Below, one piece after another: positions 17,173 through 33,002 of a stretch of DNA of 33,080 bases. Under the pieces are notes generated by a model. That model made no database searches. It saw nothing but the letters and a program-made list of their open reading frames with translations, and was not told the origin of the DNA. A program made the position numbers and the translations under genes. The stretch's first letter is position 1. Every line of letters begins with the position of its first letter. Source of the stretch: Gemmatimonadota bacterium (GTDB taxonomy: Bacteria > Gemmatimonadota > Gemmatimonadetes > Gemmatimonadales > Gemmatimonadaceae). The stretch is from contig JAJTGR010000054.1 of NCBI GenBank assembly GCA_021299375.1, forward strand, positions 1 to 33,080, written 5' to 3'.

Positions 17173-17856
17173 TCACGCGTCGAAAGGGTTGGGCAGCAGA
17201 TACGGGGCGAACACACCCTGGGCGACCCGGAACAACGCAACGGCCGGTGACATCCAGAGTGTGACCAGCGGGCGACCGAAGGACAGCACAGCAAAGAGGA
17301 GGAGCAGCCCGATACCCCCGAGCTGCTGGTACCGCAGCGACCACGCCGGCGGCAGCAGATACTTGAAGACGTGCGAGCCGTCGAGCGGCGGGATGGGCAT
17401 GAGGTTGAAGGCCGCCAGCGTGAGGTTGAGGATGATGCCCTGCACCAGCATCAGCTGGAGAACCCCAAGCGGACGGACCAGCTCCGGCACCCGCGCCGCG
17501 AGCAGGCCAATCAGCACGATGAGCGGCAGGCACAGCACGGCGATGACCACGTTCGTCGCCACCCCCGCCAGCGAGACGATGATGTCGCCCCGCTTGTAGT
17601 GCCGATAATTGCGCGGATTGACCGGGACCGGCTTGGCCCCACCGAAGATCGGGCCGCCGACGAACGCCAGGAACACCGGCAGGAGGACCGTCATGAAGGG
17701 GTCGATGTGCTTGAGCGGATTCCACGTCAGCCGACCCAGCTGGTAGGCGGTCATGTCTCCCTGCCTGTACGCCGCGTACCCGTGCGCATACTCGTGGGCG
17801 ACCATCGAGAACAGCAGCACGGGGCCGACAAGCGCGAGTTGCTGGGCGAAGTTCAC
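17173..17856 (-). CDS. Site-2-protease-like M50 membrane metallopeptidase
   Basis: This polytopic membrane protein has the zinc motif HEYAH at residues 21-25 in the first helix and the third ligand in NLMPIPPLDGSHVF, the hallmarks of short M50 proteases. From the GTG at 17854-17856 it is 227 residues and starts MNFAQQLALVGPVLLFSMV, typical of this subfamily. A longer TTG-start version reaches 17928, but that codon is only a few bases from the predicted transcription start, so I rejected it. The substrate is unknown; the short form lacks PDZ domains. It heads the scpA-scpB cluster and has a good promoter 84-112 bp upstream. Confidence 0.9.
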   Translation of the reverse strand: MNFAQQLALVGPVLLFSMVAHEYAHGYAAYRQGDMTAYQLGRLTWNPLKHIDPFMTVLLPVFLAFVGGPIFGGAKPVPVNPRNYRHYKRGDIIVSLAGVATNVVIAVLCLPLIVLIGLLAARVPELVRPLGVLQLMLVQGIILNLTLAAFNLMPIPPLDGSHVFKYLLPPAWSLRYQQLGGIGLLLLFAVLSFGRPLVTLWMSPAVALFRVAQGVFAPYLLPNPFDA

Positions 17857-17939
17857 CGGGCGGCGTGGGCGGATGGAGGCAAACGCGGAGCGGCCGACCA
17901 AGCTGATCGGAAACGCGAATGCAAGCAAATCGGAATGGA

Positions 17940-18065: not shown

Positions 18066-18094
18066 TTGACCCGCGCTCCAGACGCGTCTAGGTT
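18066..18094 (+). promoter_or_regulatory. Candidate promoter of rpsT
   Basis: TTGACC at 18066-18071, 17 bases, then TAGGTT at 18089-18094. The -10 matches the consensus only at its first two and last bases, but the pattern TAnnnT at this spacing also occurs at the groESL and M50 promoters here. It would give a leader of about 100 bases. Confidence 0.55.
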
Positions 18095-18111
18095 TCTAGG
18101 TCTGTTCCGCC

Positions 18112-18177
18112 GTGGCCGGATCGCATCCGACCGGATGGGGTATCCAAGGCGGTTTTCCCAGGTCGGATTCCGGCCAC
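18112..18177 (+). promoter_or_regulatory. Structured 5' leader of rpsT (two-part stem with bulge)
   Basis: GTGGCCGGA (18112-18120) pairs perfectly with TCCGGCCAC (18169-18177). ATCCGACC (18125-18132) pairs perfectly with GGTCGGAT (18161-18168). The two helices stack with a 4-base bulge (TCGC, 18121-18124) on the 5' side. The 28-base loop holds a smaller GGAT/ATCC hairpin. The element lies between the candidate promoter and the ribosome site at 18194-18198. It has no following T-run, so it is more likely a leader element than a terminator. S20 represses its own translation in E. coli; that this element does the same is inference. Confidence 0.6.
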
Positions 18178-18204
18178 CGTTCAACTGGTTCTCAGGAGCG
18201 TTTC

Positions 18205-18447
18205 GTGCCCAATATTCAGTCCGCCAAGAAGGACCTGCGGAAGTCCCGTGCGGCGGCGGTGCGCAATCGTGCGCAGCGTTCGGCACTGCGGACCGCCGTG
18301 AAAAAGGCCAAGTCTGCGGCGGCGGCGGCAGAAGACCGTCTCACGGCGACCTCGCTGCTCGACCGCGCGGCTCGCAAGGGGCTGATCCACAAGAACGCGG
18401 CCGCCCGGCAGAAGAGCAAGCTCGCCAAGGCCGCGCAGAGCGTCTGA
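18205..18447 (+). CDS. rpsT: 30S ribosomal protein S20
   Basis: This is primary 16S rRNA-binding protein S20, 80 residues, very Lys/Arg/Ala-rich. It begins with the family signature (GTG start) PNIQSAKKDLRKSRAAAVRNRAQRS and ends in the usual helix KNAAARQKSKLAKAAQSV. The GTG at 18205 is preceded by AGGAG at 18194-18198 with six bases between, which fixes the start; longer in-frame versions lie within the leader. It is monocistronic on the plus strand between two minus-strand blocks. Confidence 0.97.
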   Translation: MPNIQSAKKDLRKSRAAAVRNRAQRSALRTAVKKAKSAAAAAEDRLTATSLLDRAARKGLIHKNAAARQKSKLAKAAQSV

Positions 18448-18465: not shown

Positions 18466-18504
18466 CACGAAGGGCCGGTCTCTGCTGGAGTCCGGCCCTT
18501 CGTG
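18466..18504. terminator. Perfect 13-bp hairpin between convergent genes
   Basis: CACGAAGGGCCGG (18466-18478) and CCGGCCCTTCGTG (18492-18504) are exact inverted copies around a 13-base loop. The element lies 18 bp after the rpsT stop and 23 bp after the end of the convergent zinc-ribbon gene, so it can serve both strands. Neither side has a long T-run. Confidence 0.75.
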
Positions 18505-18527: not shown

Positions 18528-19697
18528 CTAGAGGGCGGCCAATTCCCCGCCGCAACGTCCGCAGTACCACTCGGTGGGCAGGTTCATCGTACCGCACTCG
18601 GTACAGCGGAGCGACTTCTGCGGATCCGCTCCCTCCGGGGACGAGGCAGCCGGCTGCGGTGACACGGACGAAACGTCCGGGGTGCCCGACTGCCCGGTGA
18701 CCGATCGCAGGAACGCCAGGTCATCGAATGGATCAGCAGCTTCCGACGGCGCCGCAGCGGTGGCCGCGGTCGCCAAGGGCGCTCCGTCGACGGACGCCGA
18801 GACTGCACGATCCTGTGGCATCGTGGCCTCATCCCCGTGGACCTCGATGCCCTCGAGCGATCGGATGAGCTCGGCATCCGGCTCGCTGGGCCGTCCGTCG
18901 AACACCGCCGGTGTATCGTCGAGTTCGGGATGCTCGATCACGGTGGCCGAGTCGACCTCGGCGACCACGTGTATCGTGACCGCGTCGCGGTACGACGCCG
19001 GCAGCATGTCGGGATCGTACGCGCTCCCCCGCTCATTCGGCGTCACCTCGGAGGATGGCATCGCTTCCGGCGCCGGAATGGCCGGGTTGGACTGTCCGAC
19101 CGTCAGGTCGAGCAGCTCATCGTCGACAACCGCCGGGGGCCTCGGCACCGATATCGACTCGGCCGCTTGGGACGGGGCATGGCTTGCCGCCGGCTCGGTA
19201 GCCGGCTCGGTAGCCGGCTCGGTGGCCGGCCTGGTCGTCACCGTCGCGGCGGCGCCCGGCTCGGCCCGAGCGCTGGCCAGCAAGGCCCGGACTTCATCGA
19301 CTTCGGTCTGCAGCACTTCGCGTTGGCCGCCAAGCGCCGCGATCTGTGCCTCGACCTGCTCGCACACGGCTTCCCACCGGGCCTGGTCGAACTCACCGAC
19401 GGCCGTCCGCAGCAGGGCCTCAGCGCGTTCGTCCGCAAGAGTGGTCAGCCGCCCTTCGAGGTTCTCCAGCCGCCGGTCGAGTTCCTGCGCGAAGCCGGAG
19501 AGCGGAGCGATGTACCCGTGCAGGCGCTCCAACACGCCCGTGCGACGGCCCACGTAGTCTGCGTACACCCGATCGAACACGCGGGCCGGTGTGTCGGCCC
19601 GCCGCGCCTCGAGCGCTTCCAGCCAATCATCGTACTTCAGGCGCTCGGCGACGAGCTCCCGCACTTCCTGAATCGACACGACATCCGGCTCCGTCAT
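18528..19697 (-). CDS. Hypothetical protein with coiled coil and C-terminal zinc ribbon
   Basis: This 389-residue protein is not one I recognise. Residues 1-165 are charged and helical with heptad-like stretches (FAQELDRRLENLEGRLTTLADE), suggesting a coiled coil. The middle (about 165-350) is acidic, low in complexity and probably disordered, with a short tandem TEPA repeat. The C-terminus has a zinc ribbon with Cys at 365, 368, 379 and 382 (CTEC, ten residues, CGRC). No signal peptide or membrane helix is seen. The ATG overlaps the stop of the small upstream gene (ATGA). A scaffold or regulatory role is possible but has no direct support. Confidence 0.75.
   Translation of the reverse strand: MTEPDVVSIQEVRELVAERLKYDDWLEALEARRADTPARVFDRVYADYVGRRTGVLERLHGYIAPLSGFAQELDRRLENLEGRLTTLADERAEALLRTAVGEFDQARWEAVCEQVEAQIAALGGQREVLQTEVDEVRALLASARAEPGAAATVTTRPATEPATEPATEPAASHAPSQAAESISVPRPPAVVDDELLDLTVGQSNPAIPAPEAMPSSEVTPNERGSAYDPDMLPASYRDAVTIHVVAEVDSATVIEHPELDDTPAVFDGRPSEPDAELIRSLEGIEVHGDEATMPQDRAVSASVDGAPLATAATAAAPSEAADPFDDLAFLRSVTGQSGTPDVSSVSPQPAASSPEGADPQKSLRCTECGTMNLPTEWYCGRCGGELAAL
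19189..19236. repeat. 12-bp tandem repeat inside the zinc-ribbon gene
   Basis: Three near-perfect copies of GCCGGCTCGGTA (19189-19224) are followed by a degenerate fourth. On the minus strand they encode repeated Thr-Glu-Pro-Ala. The 12-base unit keeps the frame, so copy number could vary without disrupting the gene. Confidence 0.8.
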
Positions 19698-20093: not shown

Positions 20094-21395
20094 TCAGTCG
20101 GCGCGATAGACGACGCGCCCCCCGACGATGGTGATGCGAGCCTGCCCCGTGAAGCGGTGCCCGCCGTAGGGCGTGTTGCGCCCCTTCGACTTGAACTGCC
20201 GCGGATCGCAGGTCCACTGCCGCGACGGATCGAACAGCGTCACATCGGCGAGGCTGCCGCGAGCGAGTGTGCCGCCAGGCAGGTGGAAGACCTTCGCCGG
20301 CTTGCAGCTCATGGCATCGACCAACTGGGACAGCGTGAGGATGCCACGGTGCAGCAGATAGGTGGTGTTCACACCAAGCGCCGTTTCGAGCCCCACGATC
20401 CCGTTTGGCGCATCGGCGAACTCGCGCTCCTTTTCGTCGTAATGATGCGGCGCATGATCGGTGACGAGCAGATCGATCGTTCCGTCGGCGACGCCCTGCT
20501 GCAGGGCATCGACATCCTCCGCCGTACGCAGCGGCGGATTCATCTTGGCATTGGTGTTGTAGCCGTCCACCGCCTCTTCGGTCAGCGAGATGTGGTGCGA
20601 GCACACCTCGGCGGTGACGTTGATGCCGCGCTCCTTGCCCCAGCGCACGAGTTCCACCGAGCCCTTGGTGCTGAGATGGCAGAGGTGGATGTGTCCACCG
20701 GTACGCTTGGCGAGCAGGATGTCGCGAATGACGTAGATCTCCTCGGCCTCGGCGGGAATGCCCTTGAGGCCGAGCTTCGCACTCATGATGCCCTCGTTCA
20801 TGCTGCCGCCGCGGGCCAGCGTCATGTCCTCGCAGTGCTCGGCGATGGGCACGTTGAAGGCGCGGGCGTACTCGAGCGCGGTCCGCATCAGCTGCGCGCT
20901 CTCGACGGGCTTGCCGTCGTCGCTGAAGGCCACGGCCCCGGCGCCGACCATCTCGGCGATTTCCGCGAGGGTCTCGCCCTTCTGCCCCACGGAGATGGCG
21001 CCGTAGGGATACACGCGCGCAAAGCCTGCCGCTTCGCCCTGCCGCTTCACGAAGCCGACGACGGCCTGATTGTCGGTGACCGGTTTGGTGTTGGGCATGG
21101 CGCACACTCCGGTGAACCCGCCGGCCACGGCGCTGTGGGCGCCGGTGGCGATGGTCTCCACATCTTCCCGACCGGGCTCGCGCAGATGGATGTGCACATC
21201 GATGAAACCCGGGGCCACCACGAGGCCCGTCGCGTCGACGACCTCGGCGCCGTCAGGCCTCCCGAGGGTCCCGCCACAGGCCTCCACCACCCCGTTGCGC
21301 AGCAGCACGTCGCCCACGGCGTCGAGCCCCTGCGAAGGATCGATGATGCGCCCGCCCTTGATGAGCAGGTCGCGCGTTCCGATCGGGTGCGCCAT
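20094..21395 (-). CDS. pyrC: Dihydroorotase, type I (PyrC)
   Basis: This zinc amidohydrolase forms dihydroorotate from carbamoyl aspartate, the third step of pyrimidine synthesis. The 433-residue protein carries the metal motif DVHIHLREPG (66-75) and the type I motifs CAMPNTKPV, IAEHCEDM, GGHIHLCHLST, NTNAKMNPPLR and TDHAPHHYDEK. The C-terminus GRNTPYGGHRFTGQA is typical. The ATG at 21395 directly follows the pyrB stop (TAAATG), so coupling is tight. All metal-ligand motifs are intact, which argues for an active enzyme rather than the inactive PyrC-like partner found in some bacteria. Confidence 0.96.
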   Translation of the reverse strand: MAHPIGTRDLLIKGGRIIDPSQGLDAVGDVLLRNGVVEACGGTLGRPDGAEVVDATGLVVAPGFIDVHIHLREPGREDVETIATGAHSAVAGGFTGVCAMPNTKPVTDNQAVVGFVKRQGEAAGFARVYPYGAISVGQKGETLAEIAEMVGAGAVAFSDDGKPVESAQLMRTALEYARAFNVPIAEHCEDMTLARGGSMNEGIMSAKLGLKGIPAEAEEIYVIRDILLAKRTGGHIHLCHLSTKGSVELVRWGKERGINVTAEVCSHHISLTEEAVDGYNTNAKMNPPLRTAEDVDALQQGVADGTIDLLVTDHAPHHYDEKEREFADAPNGIVGLETALGVNTTYLLHRGILTLSQLVDAMSCKPAKVFHLPGGTLARGSLADVTLFDPSRQWTCDPRQFKSKGRNTPYGGHRFTGQARITIVGGRVVYRAD

Positions 21396-22355
21396 TTACG
21401 CGTTTCCTTTCTTGGCCGCTTCGGCCAGTTCGGGCTTGCCACCGGCAAGCAGGTAGAGCACCGCCATGCGGACGGCCACACCGTTCGTGACCTGGTCGAG
21501 GATCACCGAGTGCGGGCCATCGGCCACGTCACTGTCGATTTCCACGCCGCGATTCATCGGGCCGGGGTGCAATATGAGGAGATCTCGCGACGCCTTCTCG
21601 AGCCGCGCGCTGGTGACGCCGAATACGCGATTGTATTCGCGCAACGACGGGATGTAGCCGGCCTGCATGCGCTCGAGCTGGAGCCGCAGGATGTTGAGCG
21701 CATCGGCCCACTCGATCGCGTCCTCGATGCGATTGAACACCGTCACGCCCATCTGCTCGATGGCGTTGGGCAGCAGCGACCGGGGACCGCACACGGCCAC
21801 GTCGGCGCCGAGCTTGGTGAGTCCCCAGATGTTGGACCGGGCCACGCGCGAGTGCAGCACGTCGCCCACGATGCAGACGCGCCTGCCGGCCAAGTCGCCA
21901 AAGCGATCGCGCAGCGTGAGGATGTCCAGCAGGCCCTGCGTGGGGTGCTCGTTGGTGCCGTCGCCGGCATTGATGACGTTCGACTCGATGCGTTCGGCGA
22001 GGAACCGTGCGGCGCCGGAGGCCGAGTGGCGGATGACGACCATGTCGATCTTCATCGCCTCGAGATTGCGAGCGGTGTCGACAAGCGTCTCGCCCTTCGA
22101 CACGCTGGAGCCCGCGACGGCGACATTGACCGTGTCGGCACTGAGGCGCTTCTCGGCGAACTCGAACGAAATGCGGGTGCGCGTCGATGCCTCGAAGAAG
22201 AGGTTCACGATCGTGGCGCCGCGTAGCGTCGGCACCTTCTTGATCGTGCGTTCGGAGATCTCGCGGAACGGGACGGCTGTATCGAGCAGCAGGCGCAACT
22301 GGTCCGCGGAAAGCGGTGCGAGGCCCAGGAGGTCCTTGCCAAGGGGGCCAGCCAT
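21396..22355 (-). CDS. pyrB: Aspartate carbamoyltransferase catalytic subunit
   Basis: This enzyme catalyses carbamoyl phosphate plus L-aspartate to carbamoyl aspartate, the committed step of pyrimidine synthesis. The 319-residue protein has the carbamoyl-phosphate site STRTR (57-61), the SVSKGET loop, [22 protein letters not shown] and the aspartate-domain [10 protein letters not shown]. It is a class C-sized catalytic chain, and no pyrI regulatory subunit is in the window. The ATG at 22355 lies 4 bp after the pyrR stop. Expression should follow PyrR control if the cluster is one transcript. Confidence 0.97.
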
Positions 22356-22359
22356 GCGG

Positions 22360-22911
22360 TCAGCTCTCCCCGTCGCGGTCGGCGATCACCACCTCGTCAC
22401 GCCCATCGAGTTCCTCGACGAACACGTCCACCCGCTGGCCCGCGGCAACATCGACCCGCCGACCGACGACATCGGCATGGATGGGGAGCTCGCGTCCGCC
22501 CCGGTCGATGAGTACAGCAAGGGCGATGCGGGCAGGACGCCCGAAGTCTGCCAGCTCGTCGAGCGCCGCCCGTATGGTGCGTCCGGTGTACAGCACGTCA
22601 TCGACAATGACGACGCGTTGGTCATCGAGCGTCCATGGGAGCGTCGTGGCGCCGACGACCGGACGCGGCCCCACCGTCTGGAGGTCGTCGCGATAGAGCG
22701 TGATGTCGAGGGCGCCCCCCGCCACCGCAACGCCCTCCTGCGCCTTGATGATGCGCCCGATGCGCTCGGCGAGTTGCACGCCGCGGCGCTGGATGCCGAC
22801 CAGCACGAGGTTGTCCGTGCCGGCGTTGAGTTCGACGATCTGGTCGGCCATGCGACGGAGCGTGCGATCGAGCGCCCGCGCGTCGAGGACCGTCGTGGTC
22901 TTCGGATTCAT
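22360..22911 (-). CDS. pyrR: PyrR, pyrimidine operon regulator / uracil phosphoribosyltransferase fold
   Basis: PyrR binds UMP and pyr mRNA to control pyrimidine genes, and often has uracil phosphoribosyltransferase activity. From the ATG at 22911 it is 183 residues. The PRPP-binding motif [12 protein letters not shown] is at 101-112, and the family segments [15 protein letters not shown] and DITLYRDDL are clear. A GTG two codons upstream is an alternative start. It is the first gene of pyrR-pyrB-pyrC. I found no match to the Bacillus PyrR RNA-binding loop upstream, only a hairpin at 22924-22953, so the mode of control is open. Confidence 0.95.
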
Positions 22912-22923
22912 GAGCACAACATA

Positions 22924-32750: not shown

Positions 32751-32837
32751 CGGATGAGGGGGGATTCGAACCCCCGAGACGCTTTCGCGCCAACACGCTT
32801 TCCAGGCGTGCGCCTTAAACCACTCGGCCACCCATCC
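32751..32837 (-). tRNA. tRNA-Ser (anticodon GGA)
   Basis: The full cloverleaf is visible: acceptor GGATGGG/CTCATCC with a G-T pair, anticodon stem CACGC/GCGTG around CTGGAAA (anticodon GGA at 32801-32803), a long class II variable arm, and a T-loop GGTTCGAATC. The 87-base length and long variable arm are typical of serine tRNA. CCA is not encoded. Confidence 0.97.
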
Positions 32838-32915: not shown

Positions 32916-33002
32916 CGGACAGGGTGAGATTCGAACTCACGATACCGTTGCCGGTATGCCGGTTTTCGAGACCGGTGCCTTCAACCACTCGGCCACCTGT
33001 CC
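32916..33002 (-). tRNA. tRNA-Ser (anticodon CGA)
   Basis: The acceptor GGACAGG/CCTGTCC pairs perfectly. The anticodon stem CCGGT/ACCGG flanks CTCGAAA (anticodon CGA at 32966-32968). A long variable arm and a T-loop AGTTCGAATC follow. The length is 87 bases, class II, with G as discriminator base as in other serine tRNAs. CCA is not encoded. Confidence 0.97.

Follow-up and report, generated by a model that had tools for sequence, protein, structure and literature searches.

A conserved hairpin in the rpsT leader of Gemmatimonas, a candidate cis-regulatory element of the ribosomal protein S20 gene

The stretch of DNA analysed here, referred to as the window, is 33,080 nucleotides long and belongs to a Gemmatimonas species with a 4.48-Mb genome in 116 contigs. 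The gene of interest is rpsT, a monocistronic gene on the plus strand. The features of the window that bear on it, and a gene row downstream, are as follows; type 1 is one of two sequence types of rpsT leader described below.

17173-17928, minus strand: M50-like peptidase gene, upstream of rpsT and divergent from it, named from its translation only
18066-18071, plus strand: -35 element TTGACC of the rpsT promoter, in a CTTGACC block conserved in the aligned relatives
18089-18094, plus strand: -10 element TAGGTT of the rpsT promoter, after a 17-nt spacer; relatives have TA-GTT at the same spacing
18099-18111, plus strand: 5' single-stranded tail of the leader, GGTCTGTTCCGCC; from GTCTGT onward the type-1 relatives are 100% identical
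18112-18120, plus strand: 5' arm of the outer helix, GTGGCCGGA, identical in all type-1 relatives
18121-18124, plus strand: 4-nt bulge TCGC on the 5' side, unopposed; derived, the relatives having TTCC, largely paired with the 3' side
18125-18132, plus strand: 5' arm of the inner helix, ATCCGACC, with ATCCG conserved in type 1
18133-18160, plus strand: loop of 28 nt, a species-specific expansion; the loop of the relatives has 5 nt
18161-18168, plus strand: 3' arm of the inner helix, GGTCGGAT, as read in the sequence
18169-18177, plus strand: 3' arm of the outer helix, TCCGGCCAC, all of whose lineage-specific changes improve pairing
18194-18198, plus strand: Shine-Dalgarno sequence AGGAG of rpsT, as read in the sequence, 6 nt before the start codon
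18205-18447, plus strand: rpsT (ribosomal protein S20), GTG start, VPNIQSAKKDLRKS..., with a PF01649 match at 18208-18432 (E 1.4e-18)
18528-19697, minus strand: gene convergent with rpsT, taken from the list of open reading frames
20094-21395, minus strand: dihydroorotase-like reading frame
21396-22355, minus strand: aspartate carbamoyltransferase-like reading frame
22360-22917, minus strand: PyrR-like reading frame

The last three reading frames, named from their translations only, appear to form a pyrimidine operon on the minus strand (20094-22917). Two tRNA genes (Rfam RF00005) lie on the minus strand at the end of the window, at 32751-32837 and 32916-33002. At 18468-18502, where rpsT converges on the minus-strand gene 18528-19697, CGAAGGGCCGG ... 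CCGGCCCTTCG form a hairpin of 11 bp that lacks a T run. It is probably a two-way terminator common to both genes; relatives have comparable GC-rich hairpins there.

The original prediction had placed a stem between a plausible promoter and the ribosome site of the S20 gene. Both boundaries stood up: the CTTGACC block and TA-GTT, separated by a 17-nt spacer, are kept in the relatives on its 5' side, and the Shine-Dalgarno sequence follows on its 3' side. From the conserved spacing of the -35 and -10 elements, the start of rpsT transcription is predicted at about 18100 (18099-18101), some 12 nt 5' of the stem, which would thus lie within the leader. A generic promoter scan of the window, which was too strict, missed this promoter, and a literature search found no published transcription-start data for Gemmatimonas. 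The GTCT-type start of the leader is also present in type 2 and in most of the genus.

The stem (18112-18177) is comprised of two exact helices with a 4-base bulge on the 5' side, just as had been read directly in the sequence. GTGGCCGGA (18112-18120) pairs with TCCGGCCAC (18169-18177) over 9 bp, and ATCCGACC (18125-18132) pairs with GGTCGGAT (18161-18168) over 8 bp. The 66-nt stem folds with -39.0 kcal/mol (z -4.75), and none of 200 shuffled sequences folds equally well. When the window was scanned for repeats with 17 or more Watson-Crick pairs, a single bulge no longer than 4 nt and a loop no longer than 30 nt, the stem was the sole inverted repeat of its strength in the 33 kb, against 0.05 expected by a chance estimate based on the window and on order-3 Markov surrogates of it. 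Its 3' end lies 16 nt before the Shine-Dalgarno sequence, and the ribosome site is not itself sequestered by the hairpin. The sequence inserted in the loop occurs once in the genome. A mobile or repeated element is ruled out by the single copy per genome, and an intrinsic terminator or attenuator was rejected, there being no T run after the stem and no terminator-like site.

The distribution of the stem was examined in the relatives, S20 having been located in 27 of 30 Gemmatimonas genomes and in 159 of 179 genomes of the family. A homologous hairpin lies upstream of rpsT in 18 of the 26 other rpsT-bearing Gemmatimonas species and occurs in two sequence types. Type 1, found in ten species including that of the window, reads GTCTGTTCCGCCGTGGCCGGATTCCATCCG-loop-CGGGTGG-TTTCC-CGTCACTG; type 2, found in nine species, reads GTCTGTCCGCAGTGGCCTGGGGC-GCC-GCCCCACCTCACTG. 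Both share a GUGG/UCAC outer helix and a small internal loop; the inner helix is present in both types but has a different sequence in each. In a tree of rpsT and its flanking genes each type is monophyletic, and the window is nested in type 1. Eight Gemmatimonas species with rpsT, L003 among them, have a leader of neither type.

Two covariance models, R1 built from the type-1 relatives with the window left out and R2 built from type 2, were searched against the 179 genomes. R1 matches the window at 18102-18181 (E 3.2e-5), which is its sole match in that genome, and its strong matches elsewhere fall in nine Gemmatimonas species, every one directly upstream of rpsT. The strong matches of R2 are in nine further Gemmatimonas species, again exclusively at rpsT and one per genome. 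R1 also matches type-2 leaders at the homologous position (L018, E 0.0098; L011, E 0.046), and the two types are therefore related. Neither model found the element in another genus of the family; the remaining matches are weak (E 5e-4 to 0.05) and no more than chance would give in 179 genomes. The leader element is thus conserved in sequence and structure and specific to rpsT, so that the proposal of a structured leader upstream of this gene is borne out by the searches and the alignment. That each genome has it once, and at this gene alone, speaks for an element acting in cis on rpsT. Its absence from the eight Gemmatimonas species and from all other genera examined indicates that it is not essential for control of S20.

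Two further loci were noted. L028 (G016), which has neither type, carries a different, strongly folded rpsT leader of 122 nt (z -3.3), which may be a third leader type. L076 is a contig (CALQGY020000006.1) with the public label Candidatus Kuenenia stuttgartiensis, and its rpsT is that of a Gemmatimonas, with an 80% identical S20; the label looks wrong or the bin mixed.

Three features of the window species are derived: its bulge, its perfectly paired 9-bp helix and its 28-nt loop. In its nine nearest relatives the hairpin is imperfect, with helices broken by mismatches, and the position of the bulge faces nucleotides and is largely paired: their TTCC, which stands where the window has TCGC, faces GGTT or GGTG, lost in the window. 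The bulged two-part stem, taken at first as the key feature, is consequently a property of the window species and not a shared one, and the conserved bulge that was expected to support the leader is not what the relatives have. Three substitutions in the 3' arm (G>A, C>G and T>C) and deletion of a bulged A turned a C-C mismatch, two wobbles and the bulged A into a continuous helix in the window lineage. Internal mismatches common to both types are perfectly paired in the window, which would be odd if a protein reads them. The derived form is present in one 116-contig assembly only and has a small probability of being an assembly error in this stretch, although a chance error is not expected to improve pairing.

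In type 1, identity is 97-100% over the first 38 nt or so of the leader, a stretch that begins at the predicted start and includes the loop. In rpsT itself the corresponding values are 0.93-0.98 at codon positions 1-2 and 0.77 at position 3; upstream of the promoter they are mostly 0.4-0.6. Identity above that of even the first codon positions of rpsT argues that the element is under selection, and, judged from this alignment, the untranslated type-1 leader segment is under strong purifying selection. Much of the conservation sits in the 5' arm and the tail, where it could serve another role.

The hairpins fold individually with z of about -1.3 to -3.7, L016 excepted. Type 2 shows three both-sided changes and 93% paired cells, and none of 500 column shuffles was as good; type 1 is too conserved for the shuffle test. 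Under a tree-based null, in which the same substitutions are redistributed over the same branches, pairing as good was reached in 1 of 2000 trials for type 1 and in 3 of 2000 for type 1 with the window, and type 2 alone was not significant (314/2000). At 15 homologous positions in all 19 species, 221 of 282 cells are paired, where the null gives 170 +/- 18 and is as high in 3 of 2000 trials. Double changes that preserve a pair within a single branch number 4.0 against 1.1 (49/2000). Among the compensating changes are G-C to U-A and A-U to G-C, in the basal part of the inner helix. The register of the alignment was set by the conserved GUGGCC and UCAC flanks, and the structural support is moderate because the structure was proposed from the same few sequences on which it was tested. 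Covariation in the rpsT leader thus appears present but modest. The compensatory changes anticipated by the original prediction are found in part: pairing of the arms exceeds the null in the combined set, in type 1 and in the type-2 shuffle test, but not significantly in type 2 alone under the tree-based null.

A general switch in which the conserved 5' tail pairs with the Shine-Dalgarno region was rejected: own pairs were slightly better than swapped ones (56/2000), and shuffled tails were as good (147/200). In type 2 only (L011, L014, L018 and L023-L026), the invariant Shine-Dalgarno region CUGCUGGGGAG is a possible partner of the 5' arm UGUCCGCAG, with pairing energies of about -9 to -11 kcal/mol; for pairing of the 5' end of the leader with CUGCUGGGGAG the value is -10.7 kcal/mol. 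Such pairing in competition with the hairpin would make a possible two-state switch.

Several explanations other than binding of S20 have to be considered. The main rival, a real though doubtful possibility, is a hairpin near the 5' end that governs the stability of the mRNA or the access of ribosomes without binding S20, for example as a shield from 5'-end-dependent ribonucleases, and that is swapped for unrelated hairpins elsewhere. Several Gemmatimonas species lacking the element do carry unrelated hairpins near the same place (GUUGACG/CGUCGAC in L020; the folded leader of L028), the window has a remade inner helix and loop together with better pairing, which fits a role in stability alone, and no rRNA-like motif was found in the leader sequence. 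Classical 5'-end protectors, however, do not have some 12 unpaired nucleotides before the stem, and the near-perfect conservation of the type-1 tail and 5' arm exceeds what a generic hairpin needs. The perfection of the helix could also be mainly mutational, template switching at an older, imperfect inverted repeat having copied one arm onto the other, with no function beyond that of the weaker ancestral stem. Template switching has been reported to create and mend RNA hairpins (PMC8794818), and the 3'-arm changes of the window, confined to a short block, all make Watson-Crick pairs from mismatches or wobbles. Two blocks separated by a bulge, however, need more than one event, and the long-term conservation in the relatives is left unexplained. 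As a whole this account is unlikely. Selection for a stronger stem and template switching could both lie behind the perfected 3' arm, and the latter is compatible with a cis-acting leader.

An even less probable explanation is a feature of the DNA or of a coding sequence, namely an extended initial-transcribed or operator site of rpsT, a short peptide encoded in the leader, or an S20 lengthened at its N-terminus by a start at the GTG at 18112. The conserved block does begin at the predicted start site, and this GTG is in frame with rpsT in the window and in some relatives. The frame is nevertheless broken in others, by TGA in L021, by TGA at codon 3 in L011 and by shifts in L005 and L013, and the changes in it are mostly non-synonymous, third positions not being favoured. 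Both the extension and the leader peptide were rejected on the stopped or shifted frames, in keeping with the earlier statement that no gene explains the repeat. With one occurrence per genome the block does not resemble a typical transcription-factor site, and its substitutions respect pairing.

Rfam release 15 contains no family that matches the leader at the gathering score, nor any match around the leader at E up to 10, which agrees with the view that it is not a known leader motif. The 16S rRNA had been proposed for comparison with the bulge region; sequence similarity between leader and 16S rRNA is at chance, 191/200, 30/200 and 200/200 shuffles being as good, and no likeness above chance is found in the sequence. 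Autorepression of E. coli S20 had been taken as established, which is too strong: according to a 2024 review it is neither confirmed nor refuted, and no measurable affinity of S20 for its mRNA has been demonstrated (PMC10931766). The question has stayed unresolved for decades, partly through lack of a known conserved rpsT leader structure (PMC10931766). A survey of ribosomal-protein leaders lists no S20 leader among 20 candidates (PMC7247131); the sole 'rpsT' entry in its table belongs to the L20 leader of Deltaproteobacteria and is apparently a slip for rplT.

The best reading of the locus is a lineage-specific cis-regulatory rpsT leader, a new candidate among the ribosomal-protein leaders with S20 as its putative ligand. 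The stem may well represent, in this species, a cis-acting element of the 5' leader that is found in a subset of Gemmatimonas and regulates rpsT, most likely through binding of S20; this is plausible, though short of probable. S20 is a primary 16S-binding protein, and it is the natural guess for the ligand because the element marks rpsT alone. To our knowledge, autocontrol by S20 has been proven in no bacterium. Transcription from the conserved promoter would start about 12 nt upstream of the stem and give a leader with the conserved tail GUCUGUUCCGCC followed by the hairpin, with its GUGG/UCAC outer helix and variable inner helix. The hairpin would then regulate rpsT expression after the start of transcription, most likely by being bound by S20 in excess of 16S rRNA. 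Since the hairpin ends 16 nt before the Shine-Dalgarno sequence, a protein bound there could hinder 30S loading at the nearby ribosome site. It is possible, though more tentative than the cis-acting role itself, that the hairpin and the conserved 5' tail together form an S20 binding site repressing its own mRNA, with a recognition that does not copy the 16S sequence. If so, this would be the first conserved rpsT operator. The leader offers a concrete RNA for testing S20 autoregulation in a genus for which complete genomes exist; it also illustrates, on a small scale, the remodelling of a ribosomal-protein leader inside one genus.

The ompA mRNA, like that of rpsT an abundant one, also has a hairpin near its 5' end, a protective stem-loop; unlike it, the Gemmatimonas leader begins with about 12 unpaired conserved nucleotides and is conserved beyond pairing. 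Like the S15, L20, S4 and L31 leaders (PMC7247131), it is a structured, non-coding 5' leader of a single ribosomal-protein gene, lineage-restricted and conserved; its covariation appears partial. It lies in the 5' UTR of such a gene, downstream of the predicted start, and is constantly associated with one gene, rpsT, across species. In contrast to the known ribosomal-protein leaders, among which Rfam release 15 has none for S20, it shows no rRNA mimicry in sequence and its S20 ligand is putative. The closest comparison by gene is E. coli rpsT, for which translational control was studied by way of leader mutations and the UUG start (Parsons, Donly and Mackie 1988, as cited in PMC10931766). It is the same gene, monocistronic and with a weak start codon, UUG in E. 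coli and GUG here. No conserved leader structure is known for the E. coli gene (PMC10931766), whereas rpsT of Gemmatimonas is preceded by a conserved hairpin.
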